DNA of 64,000 nucleotides from Dulcicalothrix desertica PCC 7102 (lineage in GTDB: Bacteria; Cyanobacteriota; Cyanobacteriia; Cyanobacteriales; Nostocaceae): positions 64,001-128,000 of the forward strand of contig NZ_RSCL01000015.1 in NCBI RefSeq assembly GCF_003991905.1, read 5' to 3'. A program made the translations under genes and the position numbers. The notes below the pieces were generated by a model. That model was not told where the DNA came from, made no database searches, and saw nothing but the letters and a program-made list of their open reading frames with translations. Shown here piece by piece: positions 2,102 to 64,000 of this stretch (position 1 is the first letter of the stretch; every line of letters starts with the position of its first letter).

Positions 2102-3652
2102 ATGGAAAATATTTTAGCAGAAAGAATAACAGTAGAGTACGGTGGTCAAAGCATCAGTGGGATAGCGCTGAAAAAGAACTCAAGAAATTCCTTCGGGAAC
2201 CCCAATGCGTTTGTATCAAAGAAAGATTTAATGATAGCGTTCCCTGGATTAACAGAGGTAAGGTTACAGAAAGCGCTACAACGGGGTAAATTTATAGCCA
2301 AAACTATTGATACGACCATTGATTGTTATCGTGTGCAAGCGGTGAACATTAACAATGAGATTTTCTATAAATTTAGTTTGCTAAAAAATATCCTTGATAA
2401 ATTAGCTTTAAAAAGACCTTATATCGATAGTTTGCGTAAAGCTTACTTTAGTGGTGAACCAGGGAAGAAGCGTAATAGGACACCAGGAACAATATCAAAG
2501 TCTCAGCCCAAGAGCCAAGCTTTAAGGCAGCTTCCCGCGAGTTTAATCGGTGAATGGCTCAAAGCTTGCCAACCGTTAGAAGATAATGAATATGGGGCAA
2601 CGAACAAATGCAATATAGATAAGCAGTATTGGGACGAAGATTATTTTGTAAAGTTCGAGGAACAACCGCTGCGAACATTCTTGGAATTAAGTGATGAAAT
2701 TAACTCTGTTATCTGGCAATGTGATAACACAATATATTGCGATGATATATATATATCGCATGATTATAATAATAGTCCGCACTGTATCTTGCAAAAACTT
2801 TTTGAATATAACCTTGTATTTATTGACAAACCAGTAGCCAAAGCTGCCACAGCGAAAGAAATCTTTGATTTAGGTGTAAGTAAGTTTAGTGATGATGGTT
2901 CAGTGGGTGGTGTCGAAGATTTTCAAAGAGTTTTATTAGAGTACGCATTGTTAAACCACCGCTGGGACATCTTAGCGGCGTTCGAGGTAGGTAACAGAAA
3001 ACCTATCGATAGAAAAGCTTATTGGACTAAGGTCTACAGCGAGCAACTAGGGAAAGAAAGCGTTAATTATTGGCAATGGCTACCCAACAAAGAATGTCTA
3101 GAGATTTGCGAGGAATTAACTTGGTTACTTTCGTTAGATAAACCCAGTAACGATACCTTGATTGTTTTAAATGTCTTACCCAAAGGTCAAAATCCGTTCG
3201 GTGAAGCCAAGGATTATAATTCTAAAGATTTTGGTTCATGGGCGACTAGACCCGCGTTTATAGACTGGAATAGCACCCGCCGAACAGAAACAAGAAGCGC
3301 TTTCAGAGAATGGCATGAGACAACCTTGAAGTTGATTGGCAAGGATAAACTCGAAGCTATCTACAAAACCTGTTACAGGATAACCTGGGATATCATCGAG
3401 GAAATTATTGACCAATTCTCTGGACACTGGTGGGAAGTTTTAGGGGTATCATCCACGGCTAGTCCAGAGCTTATCAAAGCTGCTTATAAAAATCTTGCCA
3501 AGAGATATCACCCTGATGTTAACCCTAATGGGCAGGCAAAGATGGTTATCATCAATGCTGCTTTTGAAGAATTCGAGAAAACAATCAAAAAAAACAAAGA
3601 CATGTCTTTAGATGAAATGATTGAATATGTCCGCAAACAGACAGCTAGATAA
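2102..3652 (+). CDS. J-domain protein with unknown N-terminal region
   Basis: 516 residues. The last 75 hold a typical J domain (about residues 443-492) with helix II basic residues and the HPD tripeptide at about 470-472 in RYHPDVNP, the contact that stimulates Hsp70 (DnaK) ATPase. The J domain is C-terminal, not N-terminal as in DnaJ, and no G/F region, zinc fingers or CTD follow. The first 440 residues match nothing I recognise; an early basic stretch KKRNRTPGTISKSQPKSQ (about 121-140) could be a flexible linker. An AAGG sequence lies just before the ATG. J-domain proteins on plasmids often recruit DnaK to remodel replication or transfer complexes; that role is inferred here from its place on the same element as Rep. 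Confidence 0.75.
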   Translation: MENILAERITVEYGGQSISGIALKKNSRNSFGNPNAFVSKKDLMIAFPGLTEVRLQKALQRGKFIAKTIDTTIDCYRVQAVNINNEIFYKFSLLKNILDKLALKRPYIDSLRKAYFSGEPGKKRNRTPGTISKSQPKSQALRQLPASLIGEWLKACQPLEDNEYGATNKCNIDKQYWDEDYFVKFEEQPLRTFLELSDEINSVIWQCDNTIYCDDIYISHDYNNSPHCILQKLFEYNLVFIDKPVAKAATAKEIFDLGVSKFSDDGSVGGVEDFQRVLLEYALLNHRWDILAAFEVGNRKPIDRKAYWTKVYSEQLGKESVNYWQWLPNKECLEICEELTWLLSLDKPSNDTLIVLNVLPKGQNPFGEAKDYNSKDFGSWATRPAFIDWNSTRRTETRSAFREWHETTLKLIGKDKLEAIYKTCYRITWDIIEEIIDQFSGHWWEVLGVSSTASPELIKAAYKNLAKRYHPDVNPNGQAKMVIINAAFEEFEKTIKKNKDMSLDEMIEYVRKQTAR

Positions 3653-3775
3653 TTCTGTTAATTTCTCAAAGCTATAGCCAGAGCATTTTCTAGCGTTCGC
3701 ACATCGAAAATTTCAATGTACTTTACAGAAAATATCACTAATGTACTAGCTTTGTTAGATTGACCAATGGTAATA

Positions 3776-3967
3776 CTAGCGCTGCATTTTTGCCAATATC
3801 TCTGGTGAAATCTGATGTACTATCCGCGAAGTTTCTAGCGGCAACCAATCAGGATTATTTTGCTGGTGTTCAATAAAACGTTCTTCGCTCCAGATTACTA
3901 ACGGACTATCGATAGTTTCAATGAAGCCAACAAAGACAAGTTCGGTAATATTCTTTGAGATATCCAT
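3776..3967 (-). CDS. Small hypothetical protein
   Basis: The reading frame can start with TTG at 3979 or ATG at 3967; I prefer the ATG, giving 63 residues beginning MDISKNITELVF. The sequence reads as a compact folded protein (SPLVIWSEERFIEHQQ) but matches no family I know. No strong ribosome binding site is visible. It lies alone between the J-domain gene and a 1.5-kb stretch without genes. Confidence 0.4.
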   Translation of the reverse strand: MDISKNITELVFVGFIETIDSPLVIWSEERFIEHQQNNPDWLPLETSRIVHQISPEILAKMQR

Positions 3968-3979
3968 AACATTAATCAA

Positions 3980-5524
3980 GGAAAATATCAGTATACAATC
4001 TAAAGTTACCTTTTTAGATTAATGTTACGCTGAATCGCTAAAACAACCATATATAAGCTTTACGGATTAACTTTTTGATATTTTACTGGACAATCATAGA
4101 ATATCAGTAGCAAAATCCTTGAAAGTACTGCTGGACGGTCTTAAGGGACTATTTAGTGCTTCACCCGTGGATTAATTGCAAAATGATTTACGCAAATCGC
4201 TCCTAAAAGACCGTACAGCAATATTTTCAGGCTGTGCATAACAAGTTAAGTTATAGAAATAAACACTAGTCATGCACACTAAAAAAGCCTACTAATCATT
4301 TAATCTTTAAAAAGCTTCTTTGTACAAATTGGAAATAGGTCACGTAATCATATTTACTGTTAGCTAGTGGACAGTCGCAAGACGCTCGCACACTATCTTA
4401 AAGTTGGCTCGCAGCTAGAATCCTTACTATCCAAGGCATTTCTCTAGAAATCGATTTTAAGGGCAATACAGAGGACATTCAGCAAAGGTATAATCCCACG
4501 GCTAGCATCTTTAAGGTGGCTTGCTGGACGTGCTACCGATGGCAATCTGTGTATCTGACAGCGTGCAGCTAATGGTGCCACCAGGGGACAGCTACCTACA
4601 GCTAAAAATCCTTGAAACAATTGCTGTGGTTAAATCAGTGGCAACAGCTAAGGAGCCAAGTTCGCCGCTCCAGCCCACCAGTTCCCCTCTGGAGCCGAAC
4701 AGTGCTAAAAATCCTTGAAAGTATTGCTAGTGCTGGATTCTTTGGTGGAGCCATGAAGCTTAAACCATGATTTTCCGAACAGTAAACCACCACCCATAAT
4801 AGAAGTCGGCTAAAAACATTGCTTGAGGCTTTATTGGTCAATTCCGTGGATATTTCCGTAAATCTGTCCAATATTGCCAGTCGCCTATAATTCTTGCTGG
4901 TGCCTGCGGTTAGCTGTTGGAAGACCATCAGAGATATAGCTTAATGGGCATCTAGTAATGGTAGGACGAAGTACTTGCGAAGCTAAATGGCTTTTGGGAC
5001 TTGCCACAGATGACCCACAAAAAGTCTATTGGATTATCCAAGAAAAAGCTCCGTAAAGTGCTGTGGCTGGTCTTTTGGGACTGGTGAATAAGACCCACAA
5101 TAGTAATAAAAAAACCTTGGTGGTAGCACCGCTACTTCGTGCGAAGCATGTCATGCACACTAAACGATTAGATGGTCATCTAAATAAGATTCACTAGTAA
5201 CCGCTGATGGTGAACATTGATACTAGCTGTGATGGTGCCTGCGGGTGCCTATCAGAGATATAACGATATATCGGTATCGATGAGTCTGTGATGGACAAAC
5301 TGTCTTTGACAATCATCAGTGAACGACCGTTCGGTCATTCTTTAAAGTTTGTTTCGTGGGTGGGGGTTCTGCGGTATTCCCATCGATAAACCGTAGATTT
5401 AATGCGTAAATAAATCTTTGGTAGTTATCGATACTGCCAACCAGTGAATTACTACTGAGGAAGCTATCAAAATTAAACCACCCCAGAATCTAATCTAAGG
5501 TGGTTCAATGTTGTTATCAAGGAA
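3980..5524. other. 1.5-kb gene-poor stretch with degenerate repeats
   Basis: No convincing gene in either strand; the ORFs present (for example 4521-4718 plus and 4635-4928 minus) look random and lack ribosome binding sites. A roughly 22-bp unit with core AAAATCCTTGAAA occurs at about 4111, 4601 and 4704. The 15-mer GTCATGCACACTAAA occurs at 4269-4283 and 5150-5164. Phrases such as CTGTGGCTGGTCTTTTGGGA and GACCCACAA also recur in altered form. It could be a decayed gene region or a repeat-bearing control region. Confidence 0.4.
4111..4729 (+). repeat. Dispersed degenerate ~22-bp repeats (AAAATCCTTGAAA core)
   Basis: Three same-strand copies lie at about 4111-4133, 4601-4626 and 4704-4729. 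Copies two and three share GCTAAAAATCCTTGAAA exactly, then diverge at CAATTGCTG versus GTATTGCTA. Copy one has GCAAAATCCTTGAAAGTACTGCT. Spacing is irregular (about 490 and 103 bp), which argues against classical iterons. Confidence 0.5.
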
Positions 5525-55558: not shown

Positions 55559-55681
55559 CTACTACTAGTTACAAATTACAGTTTCAGGATCGAGATAATT
55601 TTGTTGCGTTAATATTAATAGTTCCTGCGTGACCAGAAGCAAAGACGCCACTTGTAATTAATCCTCCATTTGCTACTTTTA

Positions 55682-55730
55682 GTAGAGACGCGAAATTTAC
55701 CTTCGGTACACTTCGTGAACGCGTCTCTAC
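55682..55730. repeat. GTAGAGACGCG-family inverted repeat with long loop
   Basis: The arms GTAGAGACGCG and CGCGTCTCTAC surround a 27-bp loop that itself holds TACCTTCGGTA. A related, longer form of the 28-bp palindromes elsewhere in the window. Confidence 0.85.
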
Positions 55731-55904
55731 AAGGTTTTGGGTTTGTCGAATTTTCTTAACCGAGCAGATTAAAGACGCATATTTATCAGATTATTGATAA
55801 AAATATATGTTTATTGAACATATAAAAATTAAGTATTAATACGTTGGTGCAAGATGTGAGGTAAGAGGATGCAATTGTTTAACTGTATGATTTTAAATTT
55901 TGTA

Positions 55905-56717
55905 TCACGCTATTTGTTTGGCAAACAAAAACGGTAGAGCAAATAGAAGTGGTGGATTGGTTAGCTGTACTGGATATAACTTTATATTTACGTGGTCGCA
56001 GACCTGACCATTACGCACTAGTACTGGGCCTGCGGAACCACGCAGTGGTGTCTCCTGCAAAAAATAAGTTAATCTCTCTGTAGACCAAGTAAGAGTAGTG
56101 GCAAACACATAGTATTGTCCATCCTTTGGCAGGGAAGCTATGTGATAAGTACCAGGTGCAGTTAAAACTGTGCAACTAAGAGGACGACTCTGGGGAATAG
56201 GTGTTGGGAAAAGTCCTACAAAGATTGGTTTGGTACACTCGTCGATTGTACTGATTTGTCCAGTAAGACCACGACTCGACAACGAGATACAGCAATGTTG
56301 TGTAACGTGTTCGTGTACATATTGCCAACAGGGTAAGGTAATGTACTCAGCCATATATCGCATTTGCCCAGGTGATAACCCTACAAGTTGTTTAAAACGG
56401 GTGACGAAGGTACCCAAGCTGTTGTAACCGACTTCGTAGCAGATGTCGGTGACACTGTTCTGGGTTGTTAGGAGGAGTTGTTTAGCTGCTTTCAAGCGTA
56501 GCGCGTACAGGAACTGCGAGGGTGGAATACCAGTTATTTGGCGAAATATACGGTTGAAATGATACGGACTAAGTGCAGCAATAGCAGCCATGTCTTGTAG
56601 CGAGAGCGTTTCATCCAAGTGTTCGTGCATGGTTACAATGACACGTTTCACAGCCTTATCATGTGATAAAGATGTTTTGTTGCGATGATTGATACCTATT
56701 AACAACTGCTCTTGCAT
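55905..56717 (-). CDS. AraC family transcriptional regulator
   Basis: 270 residues. Two helix-turn-helix motifs of the AraC domain are N-terminal (about 23-122): LSLQDMAAIAALSPYHFNRI and VTDICYEVGYNSLGTFVTRF with the following GLSPGQMRY. The remainder (123-270) is an unassigned β-rich domain that may bind a ligand. It reads in the same direction as the enediyne genes and begins 22 bp after the thioesterase stop, so it is probably in the same operon and a good candidate for the cluster regulator. N-terminal placement of the DNA-binding domain is less common than C-terminal. Confidence 0.88.
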   Translation of the reverse strand: MQEQLLIGINHRNKTSLSHDKAVKRVIVTMHEHLDETLSLQDMAAIAALSPYHFNRIFRQITGIPPSQFLYALRLKAAKQLLLTTQNSVTDICYEVGYNSLGTFVTRFKQLVGLSPGQMRYMAEYITLPCWQYVHEHVTQHCCISLSSRGLTGQISTIDECTKPIFVGLFPTPIPQSRPLSCTVLTAPGTYHIASLPKDGQYYVFATTLTWSTERLTYFLQETPLRGSAGPVLVRNGQVCDHVNIKLYPVQLTNPPLLFALPFLFAKQIA

Positions 56718-56738
56718 TTTTCTTTCTCCTTAATATCT

Positions 56739-57200
56739 TCAATTAGACTTCTGGCTAATTACATGAATGTTAAAATCGGGAGCAACATATGAATATAAGG
56801 CCTCCTGTAATGCTTTTGGTATGGGAGTTGCTACTGTTGCCTTTCCTTGTCGTCGCATACAAGCTACTTGCTGTTCACCACGGGCAACGAGTTCCTGACT
56901 ATCATTGGTAATACGCCAGTACTCGAAGAGCATTGTAATTCGATTTTGCTTTAATTCTTTTAGTTGCATTCGGATTGCAATTTTGTCAAAAGCAAAAAGC
57001 TCAGAAAAATATTCACACGATACTTTCACCGTGGCAAGGGCTAACCCATTGGAAAGTTCTACTAGTACACATGGTGCATGTTCTTGGAGAAACATCTCTC
57101 GACAGCGACCTTGCCAGCGCAGATGGTTTACATAATAGACATTTCCCACAAGATTCGTTTCTTCAAAACTTATTATATGGATGTATTCATAAGTTAGCAT
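56739..57200 (-). CDS. Enediyne-type hotdog thioesterase (E10/TEBC-like)
   Basis: 153 residues with a hotdog fold. SFEETNLVGNVYYVNHLRWQ carries the region corresponding to the catalytic string of 4-HBA-CoA-type and CalE7/DynE7 thioesterases, although the usual aspartate is not present, as in enediyne E10 enzymes. E10 releases the linear polyene from the synthase. Its start overlaps the end of the synthase gene by 14 bp, the strongest sign that the two work together. Complete in length. Confidence 0.9.
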   Translation of the reverse strand: MLTYEYIHIISFEETNLVGNVYYVNHLRWQGRCREMFLQEHAPCVLVELSNGLALATVKVSCEYFSELFAFDKIAIRMQLKELKQNRITMLFEYWRITNDSQELVARGEQQVACMRRQGKATVATPIPKALQEALYSYVAPDFNIHVISQKSN

Positions 57201-60200
57201 GTTGACTCCCAGAAAAACTGTTTTTGACCAGTAATGCTAGTACTAATGGTTTTTCTATTCCCCGTACTGATGTCACCAATGTTGCAATAACCATCTGACC
57301 TGCTGCCAATACAACTCTGCCGTCTTTACTTGAGTCAAGCATCATGAGTGAGATATTTATCATTGCCCCGGCTTTTTTCAAACATTCGCTAGCTGCCCAA
57401 ATACGTGTAGCTGCTATATCTAAATTTTCACCTGCATATGAAGCAACAATTTCTGCTAACTTAAACCGCTCTGTTGTCAGCAGGTCTTGCCATATGTCAA
57501 CTGTTCTGGGTCGCACAACTTCTGCGTCACAACCCACTGTCTCTTGCCCTGCAACAGCTATTGTTAAATCATCTGCATGAGCTACCGAGACAACCTTCTC
57601 GACTAGTACCTCTGGCTTACCATCAGGTCGTCGAAATACTGGCAAATTTACTCCTATTGCTTGCTTAATCGCGCGCTCACTCCGCACATGATGTTCAACA
57701 GTTGGGTCTTTATCTATAACAACCGTTACGTCTGTTGAAGGAACTAATTCTCGTATTTGGCGCTCAATGTATGCTGCTAAGAGCGGTTCCGCCCACAATT
57801 GAGATACTGTTTGTTTAATAACTTTTAACCGCAGACCTTCCCATCGCTCCAGTACACAGCCATTTATGTCTGTAACCTCTAAATCATAAATGAAAGTGTC
57901 ACCTATTTGCGCTTGTTCTTGGGCATATACAAAGTGTTCGTTGGATGTTTGTTTAATTCCAGGGATAAGTCGATCTACTCCTATAGGCAAAATTGTCGCA
58001 TGTGGGATACAAGCCTGTAGTGCATGGATGGCAGCATCTCTGGCGCCTGGGTCTCCTAAGACTAGTGTTTGTGGTAGATAGTGACTAAACCAATTATTTC
58101 CAGTATCTGGCATAATTTCTGCAACACATTTTGTCGCTCTTAAATATTTATAGCCTCGCAGTCGTCGAAATCGTCCACTATGAAAGAGGATGGCGCCATA
58201 AATATCTCGTTCTGGGTTGAGCGCATAGTTTTCATCTAACTTATGATTGGCTGTTGAAAGCAAAGATGTCTTATCTGTCTTATCTACTGAGTTACTAATT
58301 ACACAAATTGCCTGGAAATGTTCCACTTGGAAAGCAGTTTGTGTACTTCTCAAAACTACTTCAATTTGACCAGGCTTCTGTATCAGAGCTGCAATGCGGA
58401 TTGTAACACTTGAGCCATCGGGAACTACTACTGGGCGATTAAACTTGACCGACTCAAAAATTGGCGGTTCAGTAGATTTTGCTAACGCCATAGCCACCTG
58501 TGCCATTGCTTCTAGCCCCATAACTGCTGGAAACAACTGTTCTCCTTGAAACACGTGGTCTTTTAAATATGGGTCTGTGTGGGTCGATAACTCGATGTCA
58601 ACAATTAACTCCAACTCTGGATAGTAAACTTTTTGACTTTCCAAAAAGCGTAAAAATGGAAGTTCTGATTGTTCGATTTTGAGCGTTGGCATTAATCCAA
58701 AACGACCAGTTACTACTACGGATGTCTTTGGTAAAGAGTGAGATATTAAACTACGTAGAACATCTATTCCCCTATCTGGTGAAATCGGTGTAATTCCTTG
58801 TTGTATAAGCGTATCTATACGACCTAACCGCTCACCCATTCCGACACCAGACCAAATAGACCACGCTATATTTAGGCATCGACAACTTGAATGCTGTTCC
58901 TGAAATTTTTCCATTAGAAGAGCTAACCATTCGTTTGCTAACCCATAATGCGCTTCGCCCCGCAACCCAGTATTGGCAATAATAGAACCAAAGGTAATGA
59001 AAAGCCGCAAATGTTTTGGGTTAATTGCAGCGATTAGATTACGCGCTCCTTGTACTTTGGGTGCTAATGTGTTTATAAATGCTTTCTTATCCAACGAACT
59101 TAATAACTGTGGTACGTTTGTGCCGGCACCGTGCAAAATTGCCGTAATTTTACCTAGTTCTGCCTCTAGTTTAGTAACTGCGGTTTGGACTGCTTTGGCA
59201 TCAATGACATCAACTGAGATGTAACGTGCGTGTACACCTGCTGCGGTTATTCTCTCTAAGTTTTTTGAAAGTACGGTGTCAGTTTCTGGCAGAGAACGTC
59301 CTAATAGTGCTAGCCGCACTCCGGTTTCTTGAGCTATAGAAAGCGCGCATTCAGCAGCAATTCCTTTTCCCCCTCCGGTAACTAATAACACATCGTTTGA
59401 GCTTAGAGGTATTTCAGCAGGTTGTACTAACGGTAATAACCGCAGGCAAGGTTCAAACCGCTTTCCAGAAGAATCATAATGTGCCTCAGAATAACCTACT
59501 GTTGCTAAAGCTTCTGCCATTATCCACTTTGCTGCGTCAGGATGAGCGATTGGTACATCAACAATACATATATTGACATCCTGTGCTTCGAGGTAAAGCG
59601 TTCGAGCAAATGAGGCGCCACCTCCTCCATGCTGCACTAACACAAATCGCGTTGCTTTCTCCACCAAAACCTTACGAGCAGACGCAAACAACATGTCTAG
59701 ATGACATTCATCTGGGGTTGGGAGACACACAACAATTCCGCCACCAGGGCAACCTTTAAATGTCTCTTGTAAGGCGCCTAACAAAGGATAATCATTGCCC
59801 GCCATAACTTGCCAAGAGCTTTCTTCTATACTGTTAATATGACGGTGTGGCAATGAACGCTCCACTAATTCAACGGTAAATGACCTTATCCATGCATCTA
59901 CACCTTGTGGAAATTTTAGTTGTGCATCAACTTGCTCAGAAATACCACTATGTGATAGTTCCTCTAATGCTTGAGCAATTTCACTTACGCTAGCATCGGC
60001 ATAATCAGTTGGTGCAATAGGTGGTGGTAACTTAAGACAACGGGCAGCTTCGGCGACTAGCTGACTTACAGTAATCGAATTCAAATGCAAGTCACTTAGC
60101 ATACGGCTAGAATCTTGCACTGAAGAAGGAGGAAGTTCGGCACGTTCAGCCACTAGCTGACGCAAAAGCTCTAAAGCAGATTTTGAATTAGATTTTGAAT

Positions 60201-63051
60201 TAATTGATTGCTTATTATTGTGGTTTAACTTGTTTTTATCATCTGACTCTAATTCAAGATTTAAAGGCGCCAATTTTTTATCAGTGGACAATGGCGCCAG
60301 TTCACATGGATTAGTAAAAAATCGCGGATGCCAATCTAGGTTAAAGGGTCGTGTAAATCGCCCGGCAAACAATGCTTTATGTTTAATTGGCGTACCTAGA
60401 GCGAATGCAGCACCTACTGCTTGCCACAAACCAGAGAGTGAAGAACCACTAGCATCTAGCGCTACAGTTGGCACATTCACAAAGTCTTTAACCAAATTGC
60501 TTAATACTTGCCCAGGACCTACCTCAATTAACAAATCTAGTCCTTCAACTGCTTTGGTTACTGCTTGGATAAATTTTACTGGTGCTGTAACCTGACGAAT
60601 AAGAAGTGAGCGCAGATCTTCATCTTGTGGCAATAGCTCTCCAGTAACTGTAGATACAACAGTACGACGCAACGCTTGAAAATCTAACTCAGCTAGATGT
60701 TTTGCTAGCGGCTGGGCTGCTGCTGCTACCATTGGTGAGTGAAAAGCATGGGACACTGGTAAAATTGTAGCCTTAATACCTTGTGCTTTTGCCCTTTCGA
60801 CAACTTTAGTTACAACCAAAGCATCTCCAGAAATAACCGTTTGACGAGGTGAGTTGAAACCTGCTATTACAACTCCCTGGCTGATATCTAGACTAATATC
60901 TAATTTATCTGACTGAATTTTAAGTAATTCAACCTCCTGTTGTGCAGCTTGGATACTTGCCATTGCTCCAGTAGAACTGCCAAAAGCTGCCATTGCCTTT
61001 CCCCTAACGGTAGCAATTTGCAATAATGTCACTACATCCAAAGCGCCAGCCCAATAAAGAGCAGTAATTTCACCTAAGCTGTGTCCAACAGCAATACTTG
61101 CTGTTATTCCCATTTCCTCTAACGTTTGGAGTGCTGCTGTTGAAGCGGTAACAATAGCGGGTTGGGCAATAATAGTGGATTTACGGTCATTTTCTATAGG
61201 AAAACTAACTTTATTATACAGTTCTCTTACCCACTCAAAACGACTCCATAAACCACCGTCGAGATAGGTAGGAGACGCTTGTCCGGGAAAGAGGAAGCCA
61301 ATACATGGTGTTTTTGTACTATTGCCGAGAAATACTCCTGAGTTATTATCTAGTCGAGTTGTTATATCCTCTGTAAGCCATGACTGAAGTATTTTTAAAC
61401 GACTTGTTAACATCTTGGGGCTATTAGCAATAATTGCCGCCCTCACAGGCATAGTATCACGACCATCCAGGTTTTTTGAATACGAGGCAGCTAAATCAAT
61501 AACTTCAGCCCTGGACAACCTGGGAGCTAGTGTCAACAAATGTTCTATTATCTGCCGTAGATTTTGAATATCTTCGGCGCCTATGAGAATAAGTTCAGTA
61601 TCTTGAGATGAGGTCAGACATGTGTACTCTTGGAGAGTAAGTGTTTGGCGCCGCTCAGTGGTGGGACTTTCTAGAACAATATGAGTATTAATTCCTCCAA
61701 AACCCATAGCACTGACACCAGCACGCAATGGCTGGTCAGATGACCAAAGTTTTCCTTGGCTAAGAACTTGTAGAACAGGCTTTTCTCCAGTTAATTCAGG
61801 GTGAGCAAACTCTGAGCCGGTTGTTGGTGGTAGAATTTGGGTATGCAAAGCCATTGTGGCTTTAATCAACCCAGCAACTCCAGCCGCCGCTTTGGTATGT
61901 CCGATATTAGCTTTAATAGAACCGATAACTGCGGGTGCGACTTGAGATGTTGCTAACCGACGAGCGCGCGATAGTGCTTGTAGTTCCACAGCATCACCAA
62001 CACTTGTGCCTGTGCCATGCCCTTCAAAATAACTAACTGTTTCAATTCCAAAACCTGCTCGATGATATGTGCGTTTTAAAGCTAACATTTGTCCTTCAAC
62101 TTCAGGACGGGTAATGCCACCGCTACCATCCGAAGATACACCCCAACCACGAATAATGGCATAAATTCGATGCGAATGGGCAATCGCATCTTCATACCGC
62201 ATCAAAACTACACAACCGCAACCCTCACCAGGAAAAAAGCCTTCAGACCGGGTATCATAAACGCGCATTTCTGACTCTGCTAAGGCGCCTGCTTTCGCAA
62301 ACCCGACCAATTCAAATGGGTCTATGCTCAAATCTACACCACCAGCAATTGCTACATCTATATCCCCTGCAACCAGGGCACTAGCGGCGTTAGTAACTGC
62401 TAACAGCGAAGAACTACAAGCTCCGTCAATAGTATAGCCGCCACCTTTGAGATTAAAATGATTGCAAATACGTCCAGCAATTGTATTAGATAAGTTACCT
62501 GCTAAAGTTTCTTCACCAATTATTGGAAACGGTGCTTTATATTTTGCTTCTAAATTATTTAGAAATTCCCAACGTTTCTCTGGCAAACAGTTTTGCTCCG
62601 CAAGGGCAGCTTCTACTACTCGGCGCACATAAGGCCAACGCAAGCGCATTGTATTAGCTCTAGAAAATTCCCCTGTTAGCGTGTTGCCTAACAATACAGC
62701 AGTTGTATCTCGTGGTAAACCCTCACCTCCAGAAAATCCAGCATCTGCTAATGCCAATTCAGCGACATCCAACGCTAGCCAATGTGCCAAATCTGCGGCG
62801 CGAAATGTGTTGCCAGCAACCCGAAAAGCTACTCTGTCAAATTCATAACCTTCAATTAAAGCAGCTTCCGTAGTATAAGTACAATCAAGAGCATTACGGT
62901 CAGCAGACATATAATCTGCTAAGTTCAAACGTTCTGGTGGTATTTGCCTGAATGACCGACGCTGGGCGAGTACATTTGACCATAAATCTATCGGTGAGGC
63001 AGCATCTGGATAACGGCAAGCCATGCCAACAATTGCTATTGCAAATGTCAT
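57187..63051 (-). CDS. pksE: Enediyne-type iterative type I polyketide synthase (PksE)
   Basis: 1954 residues, close to known enediyne synthases of about 1900-1950. Domain order is KS (1-460; C212 in DGACSSS, H345 in EGHGTGT, H385 in NIGHTK), AT (about 585-880; S658 in GHSLGE), ACP (about 960-1030; S992 in DLHLNSITVSQ), KR (about 1215-1450; GGGKG, Y1369), DH (about 1490-1745; H1499 in DHVFQGEQLFPAVMGLEAMA) and a C-terminal phosphopantetheinyl transferase (about 1745-1954; D1842 and E1844 in VGCDAE, then WAASECLKKAG). The combined ACP-KR-DH-PPTase order with no enoylreductase is the hallmark of enediyne PKSs, which build a linear polyene that is rearranged to the enediyne core. All active-site residues are present, so it should be functional. 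It starts 3 bp after the membrane-protein gene and overlaps E10. Confidence 0.96.
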   Translation of the reverse strand: MTFAIAIVGMACRYPDAASPIDLWSNVLAQRRSFRQIPPERLNLADYMSADRNALDCTYTTEAALIEGYEFDRVAFRVAGNTFRAADLAHWLALDVAELALADAGFSGGEGLPRDTTAVLLGNTLTGEFSRANTMRLRWPYVRRVVEAALAEQNCLPEKRWEFLNNLEAKYKAPFPIIGEETLAGNLSNTIAGRICNHFNLKGGGYTIDGACSSSLLAVTNAASALVAGDIDVAIAGGVDLSIDPFELVGFAKAGALAESEMRVYDTRSEGFFPGEGCGCVVLMRYEDAIAHSHRIYAIIRGWGVSSDGSGGITRPEVEGQMLALKRTYHRAGFGIETVSYFEGHGTGTSVGDAVELQALSRARRLATSQVAPAVIGSIKANIGHTKAAAGVAGLIKATMALHTQILPPTTGSEFAHPELTGEKPVLQVLSQGKLWSSDQPLRAGVSAMGFGGINTHIVLESPTTERRQTLTLQEYTCLTSSQDTELILIGAEDIQNLRQIIEHLLTLAPRLSRAEVIDLAASYSKNLDGRDTMPVRAAIIANSPKMLTSRLKILQSWLTEDITTRLDNNSGVFLGNSTKTPCIGFLFPGQASPTYLDGGLWSRFEWVRELYNKVSFPIENDRKSTIIAQPAIVTASTAALQTLEEMGITASIAVGHSLGEITALYWAGALDVVTLLQIATVRGKAMAAFGSSTGAMASIQAAQQEVELLKIQSDKLDISLDISQGVVIAGFNSPRQTVISGDALVVTKVVERAKAQGIKATILPVSHAFHSPMVAAAAQPLAKHLAELDFQALRRTVVSTVTGELLPQDEDLRSLLIRQVTAPVKFIQAVTKAVEGLDLLIEVGPGQVLSNLVKDFVNVPTVALDASGSSLSGLWQAVGAAFALGTPIKHKALFAGRFTRPFNLDWHPRFFTNPCELAPLSTDKKLAPLNLELESDDKNKLNHNNKQSINSKSNSKSALELLRQLVAERAELPPSSVQDSSRMLSDLHLNSITVSQLVAEAARCLKLPPPIAPTDYADASVSEIAQALEELSHSGISEQVDAQLKFPQGVDAWIRSFTVELVERSLPHRHINSIEESSWQVMAGNDYPLLGALQETFKGCPGGGIVVCLPTPDECHLDMLFASARKVLVEKATRFVLVQHGGGGASFARTLYLEAQDVNICIVDVPIAHPDAAKWIMAEALATVGYSEAHYDSSGKRFEPCLRLLPLVQPAEIPLSSNDVLLVTGGGKGIAAECALSIAQETGVRLALLGRSLPETDTVLSKNLERITAAGVHARYISVDVIDAKAVQTAVTKLEAELGKITAILHGAGTNVPQLLSSLDKKAFINTLAPKVQGARNLIAAINPKHLRLFITFGSIIANTGLRGEAHYGLANEWLALLMEKFQEQHSSCRCLNIAWSIWSGVGMGERLGRIDTLIQQGITPISPDRGIDVLRSLISHSLPKTSVVVTGRFGLMPTLKIEQSELPFLRFLESQKVYYPELELIVDIELSTHTDPYLKDHVFQGEQLFPAVMGLEAMAQVAMALAKSTEPPIFESVKFNRPVVVPDGSSVTIRIAALIQKPGQIEVVLRSTQTAFQVEHFQAICVISNSVDKTDKTSLLSTANHKLDENYALNPERDIYGAILFHSGRFRRLRGYKYLRATKCVAEIMPDTGNNWFSHYLPQTLVLGDPGARDAAIHALQACIPHATILPIGVDRLIPGIKQTSNEHFVYAQEQAQIGDTFIYDLEVTDINGCVLERWEGLRLKVIKQTVSQLWAEPLLAAYIERQIRELVPSTDVTVVIDKDPTVEHHVRSERAIKQAIGVNLPVFRRPDGKPEVLVEKVVSVAHADDLTIAVAGQETVGCDAEVVRPRTVDIWQDLLTTERFKLAEIVASYAGENLDIAATRIWAASECLKKAGAMINISLMMLDSSKDGRVVLAAGQMVIATLVTSVRGIEKPLVLALLVKNSFSGSQHANL

Positions 63052-63054
63052 TAT

Positions 63055-63981
63055 TTATACCTCTCTAATTGTTTTGGTTGCTGGTACTAAAACCTTTGTA
63101 AATGCCACATAGTCAGCTATTGCTTGGGCGTAAAAGCTCAGTCCTCGAAATATACAGACAATTGTCAGAGCAAAGAAAAACCCAAACACGATGTGATTGA
63201 CCATTAGTAGCCCATACACAATAGCCACTGATAAGCCAAATATCGCTTGATTTAATGGTCTGCTTGGCGTTGTACCTGGGTCTGTCACCATATAAAAGGT
63301 GAACAACACAAACGCTACACCCGTCATCGGTACAAATCCAGCTATCATAGGTGTTCCAAATATCAAACTTCTCAATAATGCTTGTAAGACAAAGCCACCT
63401 AGCCAACCTGCAATTAGGGAAAGTTTTCCAGTGAAGCGAGTATTGAGAAATGTGCCACTAATTACAATTAGCCCCGGTAAAATCCAATCTCCTGCACCGC
63501 TAAGGTTTTCTGTAAATTGGTAAGGAGGAGCAATACCAACCCAAGGAAACATTAACAGTGTGACTGTGATGCCAAAGTTGGAGGGGTTGAGAAAATGCCG
63601 CTGTTCGTTACCCAACGGTGCGCGAAAGATAGCTTTTGAGGCGATAGCGACTGCACTGGCAAAAGCGATAGGTAATAGACGCTCGTTTGCATACAGCAGC
63701 ATAGCAACTGCCAAAGCTGTAATGTGTGCGGATAATAGAAAATTGACAAAACGCCTCAGTCCACCAATGAACACAGGTTGGCGCCCATTAACCCATGCAT
63801 CAATCAGTTCGAGCAGAATTTCCATACTATAGGCAGTCGCTAAGGCAATTAAAGGCTGTGCCCAAGATTGCTCAAAGCCTAAAACCGTATGTCCTAAAAT
63901 ATTCAAAACTGTAATTGCTACAGCAAAACGCTGCAATCCTGCTAAACGATTTGCTTTGTGTATGTTAAAAGTGCTTATCAC
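63055..63981 (-). CDS. UnbU/E5-like membrane protein of the enediyne cassette
   Basis: 308 residues, about eight hydrophobic spans. A relative of the RnfD/NqrB electron-transport membrane subunits by general form; MVTDPGTTPSRPLNQAIFG matches the conserved 'DP.TTP.RP' string of that group. In enediyne clusters a protein of this type (UnbU, also E5) is encoded next to the PKS in the order E3-E4-E5-E-E10; here it is immediately upstream of the PKS with 3 bp between. Its biochemical role is not established. The ATG at 63981 is close to the window edge; E4 (UnbV) and E3 are expected just beyond. Confidence 0.85.
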   Translation of the reverse strand: MISTFNIHKANRLAGLQRFAVAITVLNILGHTVLGFEQSWAQPLIALATAYSMEILLELIDAWVNGRQPVFIGGLRRFVNFLLSAHITALAVAMLLYANERLLPIAFASAVAIASKAIFRAPLGNEQRHFLNPSNFGITVTLLMFPWVGIAPPYQFTENLSGAGDWILPGLIVISGTFLNTRFTGKLSLIAGWLGGFVLQALLRSLIFGTPMIAGFVPMTGVAFVLFTFYMVTDPGTTPSRPLNQAIFGLSVAIVYGLLMVNHIVFGFFFALTIVCIFRGLSFYAQAIADYVAFTKVLVPATKTIREV

Positions 63982-64000
63982 GTCTTCATACCTCTGTGCT

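Follow-up and report, generated by a model that had tools for sequence, protein, structure and literature searches.

Enediynes are DNA-cutting natural products known mostly from actinomycetes, and one locus of the cyanobacterium Dulcicalothrix desertica PCC 7102 raises the question of whether a member of this phylum has the genes for such a compound and, if so, for which kind. The locus lies at the right end of a stretch of 64,000 nucleotides (the window: bases 64001 to 128000 of a 290,899-base contig, C15, in an 11.4-Mb genome), where an enediyne polyketide synthase (PKS) cassette forms part of a genomic island of 29,009 bases. The genome carries phycobilisome genes, confirming a cyanobacterial host, while a 16S search of it returned no match. 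Comparison of its genes with those of known clusters leads us to read it, with a probability of roughly 55%, as a chimeric enediyne island that would yield an undescribed compound related to the anthraquinone-fused ten-membered enediynes.

A complete enediyne PKS cassette

The cassette genes of the window are all encoded on the minus strand. They comprise an E10 thioesterase of the hot-dog fold (positions 56739 to 57200), which matches the ACP-polyene thioesterase of PDB entry 4i4j (7e-48), CalE7 (6e-44), and DynE7; the 1954-aa iterative enediyne polyketide synthase PksE (57187 to 63051); and an E5/UnbU membrane protein (63055 to 63981 as first annotated, with the frame reaching the window end at 64000). 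E10 and PksE overlap by 14 bases, and PksE and E5 are separated by 3. The E5 frame stays open at the window end and runs to about position 64011, where a longer ATG start, 11 bases past the window end, gives a 318-aa open reading frame (ORF) on the contig. The first-pass annotation, made from the window alone, had placed these three genes correctly, in the diagnostic order and with short junctions; it left out of the cluster an AraC-family regulator (55905 to 56717, minus strand; Pfam HTH_18), which we take to be a member. Four other enediyne loci of cyanobacteria hold an AraC gene to which the regulator is 56 to 59% identical; to those of the dynemicin and C-1027 loci it is 35 to 36% identical.

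The E4 and E3 homologues that the annotation had proposed to look for to the right are indeed there: on the minus strand, E5 is adjoined by a 651-aa E4 with FG-GAP repeats and an UnbV_ASPIC domain, and this is followed by a 365-aa E3 (DUF1702, 385 bits). Since both lie directly past the window end, the cassette is complete, with all five genes present, adjacent, and in the canonical order E3-E4-E5-PksE-E10; the enediyne PKS cassette has been defined as E3/E4/E5/E/E10 (PMC5181780; this and the other papers are cited from excerpts of their text). Each of the five also has a counterpart in the C-1027 locus of Streptomyces globisporus, whose plasmid-encoded synthase is 46.3% identical to the PksE over 99% of its length. 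A Pfam scan of PksE recovered KS, AT, KR, and DH domains in that order. The annotation's KS-AT-ACP-KR-DH-phosphopantetheinyl transferase (PPTase) architecture thus stands by direct call for these four, while the ACP and a putative C-terminal PPTase, both without a Pfam call, rest on residues invariant in eight aligned PksE. The invariant positions are C212, H345, H385, S658, S992, Y1369, H1499, E1889, and K1893 (the last two among the conserved C-terminal residues), which we take to be catalytic.

Phylogenetic position of the synthase

Two quick trees were built. In the PksE tree (67 of 91 rows used), support is given by the SH-like approximate likelihood ratio test (SH-aLRT) only. The KS tree, which has long outgroup branches, drew on 100 KS pieces, 4 of which were dropped as short (including both from loci L179 and L181 of the host genome), with 59 of 97 rows used. 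Of at least 554 confirmed relatives, the best 80 serve as the named PksE loci, and these 80 include Cyanobacteria, Chloroflexota, Planctomycetota, and others, indicating that PksE is widespread.

The window KS groups with SgcE in the PksE clade (SH-aLRT 97) and separately from four further KS, among them that of a polyunsaturated fatty acid (PUFA)-type synthase of the same genome (NCBIfam PfaA, 1837 bits against a cut-off of 1010); this single PfaA-type KS is the tree's reference for both PUFA and heterocyst-glycolipid synthases, named KS of the latter kind not being in it. A PUFA-type synthase, which the annotation had given as the contrary case, is rejected on the KS placement together with the family scan. 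That PksE could be a misread PUFA or heterocyst-glycolipid synthase we consider scarcely credible: PfaA is its second-best NCBIfam model, yet at 493 bits falls under the cut-off, the KS sides with SgcE rather than with the same-genome KS that passes it, and the neighbors are E3, E4, E5, and E10.

Within the family, the PksE is one of 12 cyanobacterial sequences that form a clade with full support in the 67-row tree (support of 87 for the cyanobacterial clade in the KS-only tree), and a 13th cyanobacterial row, from a Gloeobacterales bin (L120), falls outside both the cyanobacterial and the actinomycete clades. As the 12 form a clade of their own apart from that of the actinomycetes, a recent import of the PKS from an actinomycete is ruled out. 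The enediyne reading of the annotation is thus largely right, with E3 and E4 found and the KS in the PksE clade, but enediyne-type synthases are no novelty in cyanobacteria: a cyanobacterial enediyne KS clade was shown by Calteau 2014 (PMC4247773), cyanobacterial sponge symbionts carry enediyne-type PKS (PMC6520454), and enediyne KS domains are recorded in Cyanobacteria, among many phyla, with no compound reported in the excerpted text, which gives only Actinobacteria and marine ascidian extracts as sources of enediynes so far (PMC10308959).

Two further kinds of locus appeared in these searches. A second class of PksE-like synthase occurs near lower-scoring DUF1702 genes in two genomes (L088 of G528 and L091 of G554); its KS are 50 to 53% identical to that of the window and it branches outside the PksE clade, possibly representing another polyene or enediyne-like pathway. 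In four Ktedonobacteria loci (L106, L109, L115, and L099), PksE, E3, and E10 are adjacent, and diverged E4 and E5 (about 30%) are placed after E10; a DynF-like protein of 29 to 31% identity lies near three of the four.

A dynemicin-type operon beside the cassette

To the right of the cassette, a divergent operon on the plus strand opens with three genes, encoding a 442-aa HEAT-repeat protein that matches the dynemicin HEAT protein; a 223-aa DUF6073 protein that matches PDB entry 6ubl, the DynF of dynemicin (3.7e-72); and a 332-aa di-domain START protein (Pfam AHSA1). A search with DynF in 160 Micromonospora genomes, with 80 kb fetched around each strong match, gave strong matches (245 to 254 bits) in 3 genomes and one weak match of 44 bits. 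All three have the full cassette within the 80 kb and the HEAT-DynF-START order of the island, one of them (G741) with an extra START-like piece between DynF and START. One of the three, G623, is taken to be the dynemicin producer, Micromonospora chersina, because all 204 aligned residues of its DynF agree with 6ubl and 284 aa of its other START protein align to DynU16 (6v04) with 660 bits. The island DynF is 56 to 60% identical to the three Micromonospora proteins. Against the dynemicin locus, identities run from 67% (HEAT) and 57% (DynF) through 49% (a 188-aa protein and E5), 45% (START), and 40% (PksE) to 37% (ABC1), 35% (AraC), and 33 to 38% (SnoaL). The C-1027 locus (45.8 kb) yielded no HEAT, DynF, or START match; thus, the trio, with the weaker SnoaL and ABC1 matches, is common to the island and dynemicin and not to C-1027.

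The island START is not DynU16, since 6v04 corresponds to the other dynemicin paralog (26% identical to the island START), and the DynF-adjacent copy is 44 to 45% identical. From the numbering around orf15, the former name of DynF, the HEAT and START proteins are probably Dyn14 and Dyn16. DynF binds palmitate in a barrel, and its ortholog Sgd15 is essential for sungeidine, no intermediates having been seen according to the excerpts (PMC8725005); Dyn14/16 couple the iodoanthracene and the enediyne core (PMC9464397).

The combination is rare. Among 217 genomes of the host family, DUF6073 occurs in 4, each time in a locus that also holds a high-scoring E3; DUF1702 reaches at least 384 bits in 8, including the same loci of these 4; and a further 18 have lower-scoring DUF1702 only (at most 289 bits), which in two of three loci viewed (G528 and G554, not G382) lies near the different PksE-like synthase described above. 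No other HEAT protein of the island kind scored above 28 bits in a 386-genome sample of the phylum.

Ring size was considered separately. The whole host genome has one DUF1702 match and the dynemicin region one E3 match, while C-1027 has two DUF1702 genes, the second being the E2 of nine-membered clusters (PMC5181780). For ten-membered clusters, that paper names a family R3. This second gene, a marker of nine-membered clusters, is absent from the whole host genome. A nine-membered assignment from PksE similarity alone was not adopted, the second DUF1702 gene being missing and the HEAT-DynF-START trio present.

Other genes of the island

The island has 20 gene calls, all open frames, which were scanned with Pfam. 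On the plus strand, START is followed by two SnoaL proteins, a DyP-type peroxidase (516 aa), a DUF362 protein, a 337-aa protein, a nonribosomal peptide synthetase (NRPS; 1481 aa) of A-MT-PCP-C architecture, an acetyltransferase, and a 168-aa protein. The right end is formed by minus-strand genes for a 137-aa protein, an ABC1 kinase-like protein, and the 188-aa protein; no Pfam family matched the 337-, 168-, 137-, and 188-aa products. The P450, FAD halogenase, and resistance genes that the first-pass annotation anticipated nearby were not recognized by Pfam in the 20 genes, and CagA and SgcB were not searched for by sequence.

Aligned by eye, the A-domain code of the NRPS reads VDWVLSLADK (VDWVFSLADK in G544, a cyanobacterium of another genus), which we liken to beta-alanine codes. 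Four beta-alanine-like code strings sought in the literature gave no match, so a beta-alanine-like substrate is a guess.

A proposed pathway and its alternatives

Under the proposed chimeric pathway, PksE would condense malonyl units to an ACP-bound polyene that E10 would release. PksE with its thioesterase is reported to give a linear polyene, a heptaene in E. coli (PMC8725005). E3, E4, and E5, together with DynF, START, and HEAT, would then build from this polyene both the enediyne core and, following dynemicin, an iodinated anthracene half, and join these to each other; in dynemicin, one synthase serves both halves and iodide matters (PMC8725005, PMC9464397, PMC8210685). The A-MT-PCP-C synthetase would activate, N-methylate, and add an amino acid, perhaps a beta-alanine-like one, and its terminal condensation-like domain may transfer this residue or may be inactive. 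The DyP peroxidase may oxidize iodide or the anthracene, and the AraC gene probably controls the island.

Several observations weigh against an anthraquinone-fused ten-membered product. PksE is closer to the nine-membered SgcE (46%) than to DynE8 (40%), and the single DUF1702 gene is weak evidence of ring size because it is also usual outside actinomycetes. Several dynemicin frames common to other Micromonospora have no match in the island, nor were a FAD monooxygenase, methyltransferase, or glyoxalase-like gene of the type present in another cyanobacterium (G397, below) found there. For the later core genes DynE13, A1, A2, A4, and A5, with dyn frames not matched to names, the island shows SnoaL-type similarity only. 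The NRPS C domain has HTLICDG in place of HHxxxDG in both the host and G544. Finally, of the 48 named genomes with PksE that were searched for DUF6073 and DUF1702 (50 of the 80 loci), 8 have DUF6073, and those checked are about 20 to 31% identical to the island DynF, so diverged that the domain alone is not proof; as a marker in its own right it was rejected on the proteins of Actinomadura alba and A. litoris, which reach 283 and 271 bits with the Pfam model but are only 20% identical to the island DynF, and on a Saccharothrix DUF6073 protein without a tblastn match to it.

These gaps bear on an alternative that we regard as unlikely, although the strongest of the competitors, namely, a new non-anthraquinone type in which the trio acts on the polyene and core only, giving a ten- (or nine-) membered enediyne with an N-methyl amino acid. 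It would account for an island in which P450, FAD monooxygenase, and separate methyltransferase genes were not recognized, which has an A-MT-PCP-C synthetase of its own (71% conserved in G544), and whose PksE sits in a separate cyanobacterial clade; yet should HEAT and START correspond to Dyn14 and Dyn16, they would be left without their anthracene-core coupling job (PMC9464397). A more doubtful one is that the cassette stops at a linear polyene or polyyne serving as a pigment, membrane, or signaling compound. The heptaene made in E. coli fits this, as does the lack of Pfam counterparts in the island to the flavin reductase, P450, and GMC oxidoreductase beside the C-1027 cassette, but E3, E4, and E5 have uninterrupted frames here and also occur in many loci from other phyla, and DynF and START counterparts are maintained in four genera. 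We therefore keep to the chimeric island with a relative of the anthraquinone-fused enediynes as its product; only tentatively would we go on to a fuller version in which a cyanobacterium makes a dynemicin-type, anthraquinone-fused enediyne with an N-methyl amino acid and HEAT-DynF-START crossed between Actinomycetota and Cyanobacteria independently of the PKS.

Related loci and a probable mosaic origin

G544 retains most of the island genes in the same sequence, among them those for the NRPS and the peroxidase, but its 188-aa and ABC1 genes lie across the cassette from their position here; the ABC1 protein of G544 is 38% identical to that of the island, against 76% in Microseira. In G397, the cassette lies between HEAT and DynF-START, and G415 encodes DynF and a pair of START proteins, its 40 kb of fetched sequence giving no HEAT match. 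The G397 locus (L086/L087) adds dynemicin-like frames for a FAD monooxygenase (43%), SnoaL (42%), methyltransferase (39%), and glyoxalase-like protein (41%), with P450s nearby, and may be a better candidate for an anthraquinone-fused product. Elsewhere, a 34-residue piece 76% identical to E5 (G235:C71:13576-13677, L073), whose contig shows no further strong match to the cassette over its first 20 kb, is likely a remnant.

The trio and PksE seem to have different histories, because the Microseira PksE is closer (59%) and yet its HEAT homolog is only 29% identical, as opposed to 67% for the dynemicin HEAT; judged from such pairwise values rather than from a tree of the trio, the alternative is two old HEAT paralogs with losses. 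The cluster would thus be a mosaic of a cyanobacterial cassette, a dynemicin-type early operon, and an NRPS and peroxidase not found in the dynemicin locus.

Borders and residence of the island

Nucleotide alignment, with borders set from a congener (G431), places the island at C15:119592-148600, that is, from window position 55592 to 64000 and on to the right. It is absent from the matching site in four genomes (G431, G436, G432, and G435), where the flanking GT8 gene (left) and 660-aa protein gene (right), here 30 kb apart, are separated by 1.4 to 1.8 kb; in G435 the right gene is a remnant only. The left flanks are 91.7 to 95.1% identical and the right flanks 93.5 to 94.7% in three congeners and 76.7 to 78.6% in G432. 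Only these four empty sites are clear, because the flanks are 7 kb apart in G433 and on different contigs in G434. DUF1702 genes are missing from all six congeners. No direct or inverted word of 14 bases or more was common to the 2.4 kb around the left edge and the 2.6 kb around the right.

The word GGCGCC is highly iterated in the host genus, at about 1.3 per kb in the window and the congener stretches L201 to L204, and none of the stretches counted contains GCGATCGC. The density of GGCGCC is 1.24 per kb within the part of the window that belongs to the cluster and 1.32 to the left of that part, in agreement with the annotation's statement that the PksE carries it at about the host rate. The island contains GGCGCC 32 times, where 100 first-order Markov copies average 2.7, and GCGATCGC not at all; the congeners' sites have 1.25 to 1.44 per kb, likewise with zero GCGATCGC. 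The G544 cluster has 16 GCGATCGC and zero GGCGCC, and seven other cyanobacteria with PksE loci use GCGATCGC. As GGCGCC is enriched and GCGATCGC absent, as in the congeners, the island bears the word of its own genus, which favors the long residence proposed in the annotation despite the lack of DUF1702 in the six congeners; either its stay in the genus is an old one and the other members have lost it, or its source is an unsampled lineage that uses the same word. That the island is a silent or decaying remnant, newly acquired and unexpressed, is improbable. Such a relic would suit the absence of DUF1702 from the congeners, four of them with a tight island-free site, and the state of a relative (G438; L083, 3403-10061) whose PksE, divided between two distinct open frames of 413 and 1555 aa, is interrupted or degenerate. 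It sits poorly with the open frames of the island, with a GGCGCC count that bespeaks a long stay in this genus or a same-word lineage, and with the gene order mostly kept in G544.

Significance and comparison with known systems

Because the island shares a specific operon with the partly solved dynemicin pathway, it gives an orphan cyanobacterial lineage a testable chemical hypothesis; the open-licence literature searched yielded no description of a dynemicin-type operon from a cyanobacterium. Kept beside a very different PksE and common to dynemicin but not C-1027, HEAT, DynF, and START are singled out as important for the still unsolved conversion of the polyene to the core and the anthracene. 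Should the product be real, how a cyanobacterium protects its own DNA becomes a question, given that Pfam recognized no resistance gene among the 20 island genes.

Among known systems, the dynemicin locus of M. chersina resembles the island in its E3-E4-E5-PksE-E10 cassette, its HEAT-DynF-START order, and its 188-aa, AraC, ABC1, and SnoaL counterparts; it differs in its distant PksE (40%), in lacking a match to the island NRPS, DyP peroxidase, and DUF362 protein, and in the island's having a cyanobacterial host. The nine-membered C-1027 locus of S. globisporus shares the five-gene cassette (PksE 46%, E10 57%, E5 52%) as well as the 188-aa (49%) and AraC (36%) genes, but has a second DUF1702 gene and none of the trio in its 45.8 kb. 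Microseira wollei NIES-4236 (L098) is close in PksE (59%), ABC1 (76%), DyP (57%), and AraC (56%) and unlike the island in its distant HEAT homolog (29%), with no DynF or START match in 24 kb and no DUF6073 in the genome; its E4 is split over two overlapping frames (3395-5232; 163 and 453 aa), through a frameshift or a sequencing error. The cyanobacterial enediyne KS clade (PMC4247773, PMC10308959) is of the same KS class and phylum, its compound unreported in the excerpts of the latter; those papers treat KS domains and clusters, with a dynemicin-type operon not mentioned in the excerpted parts.

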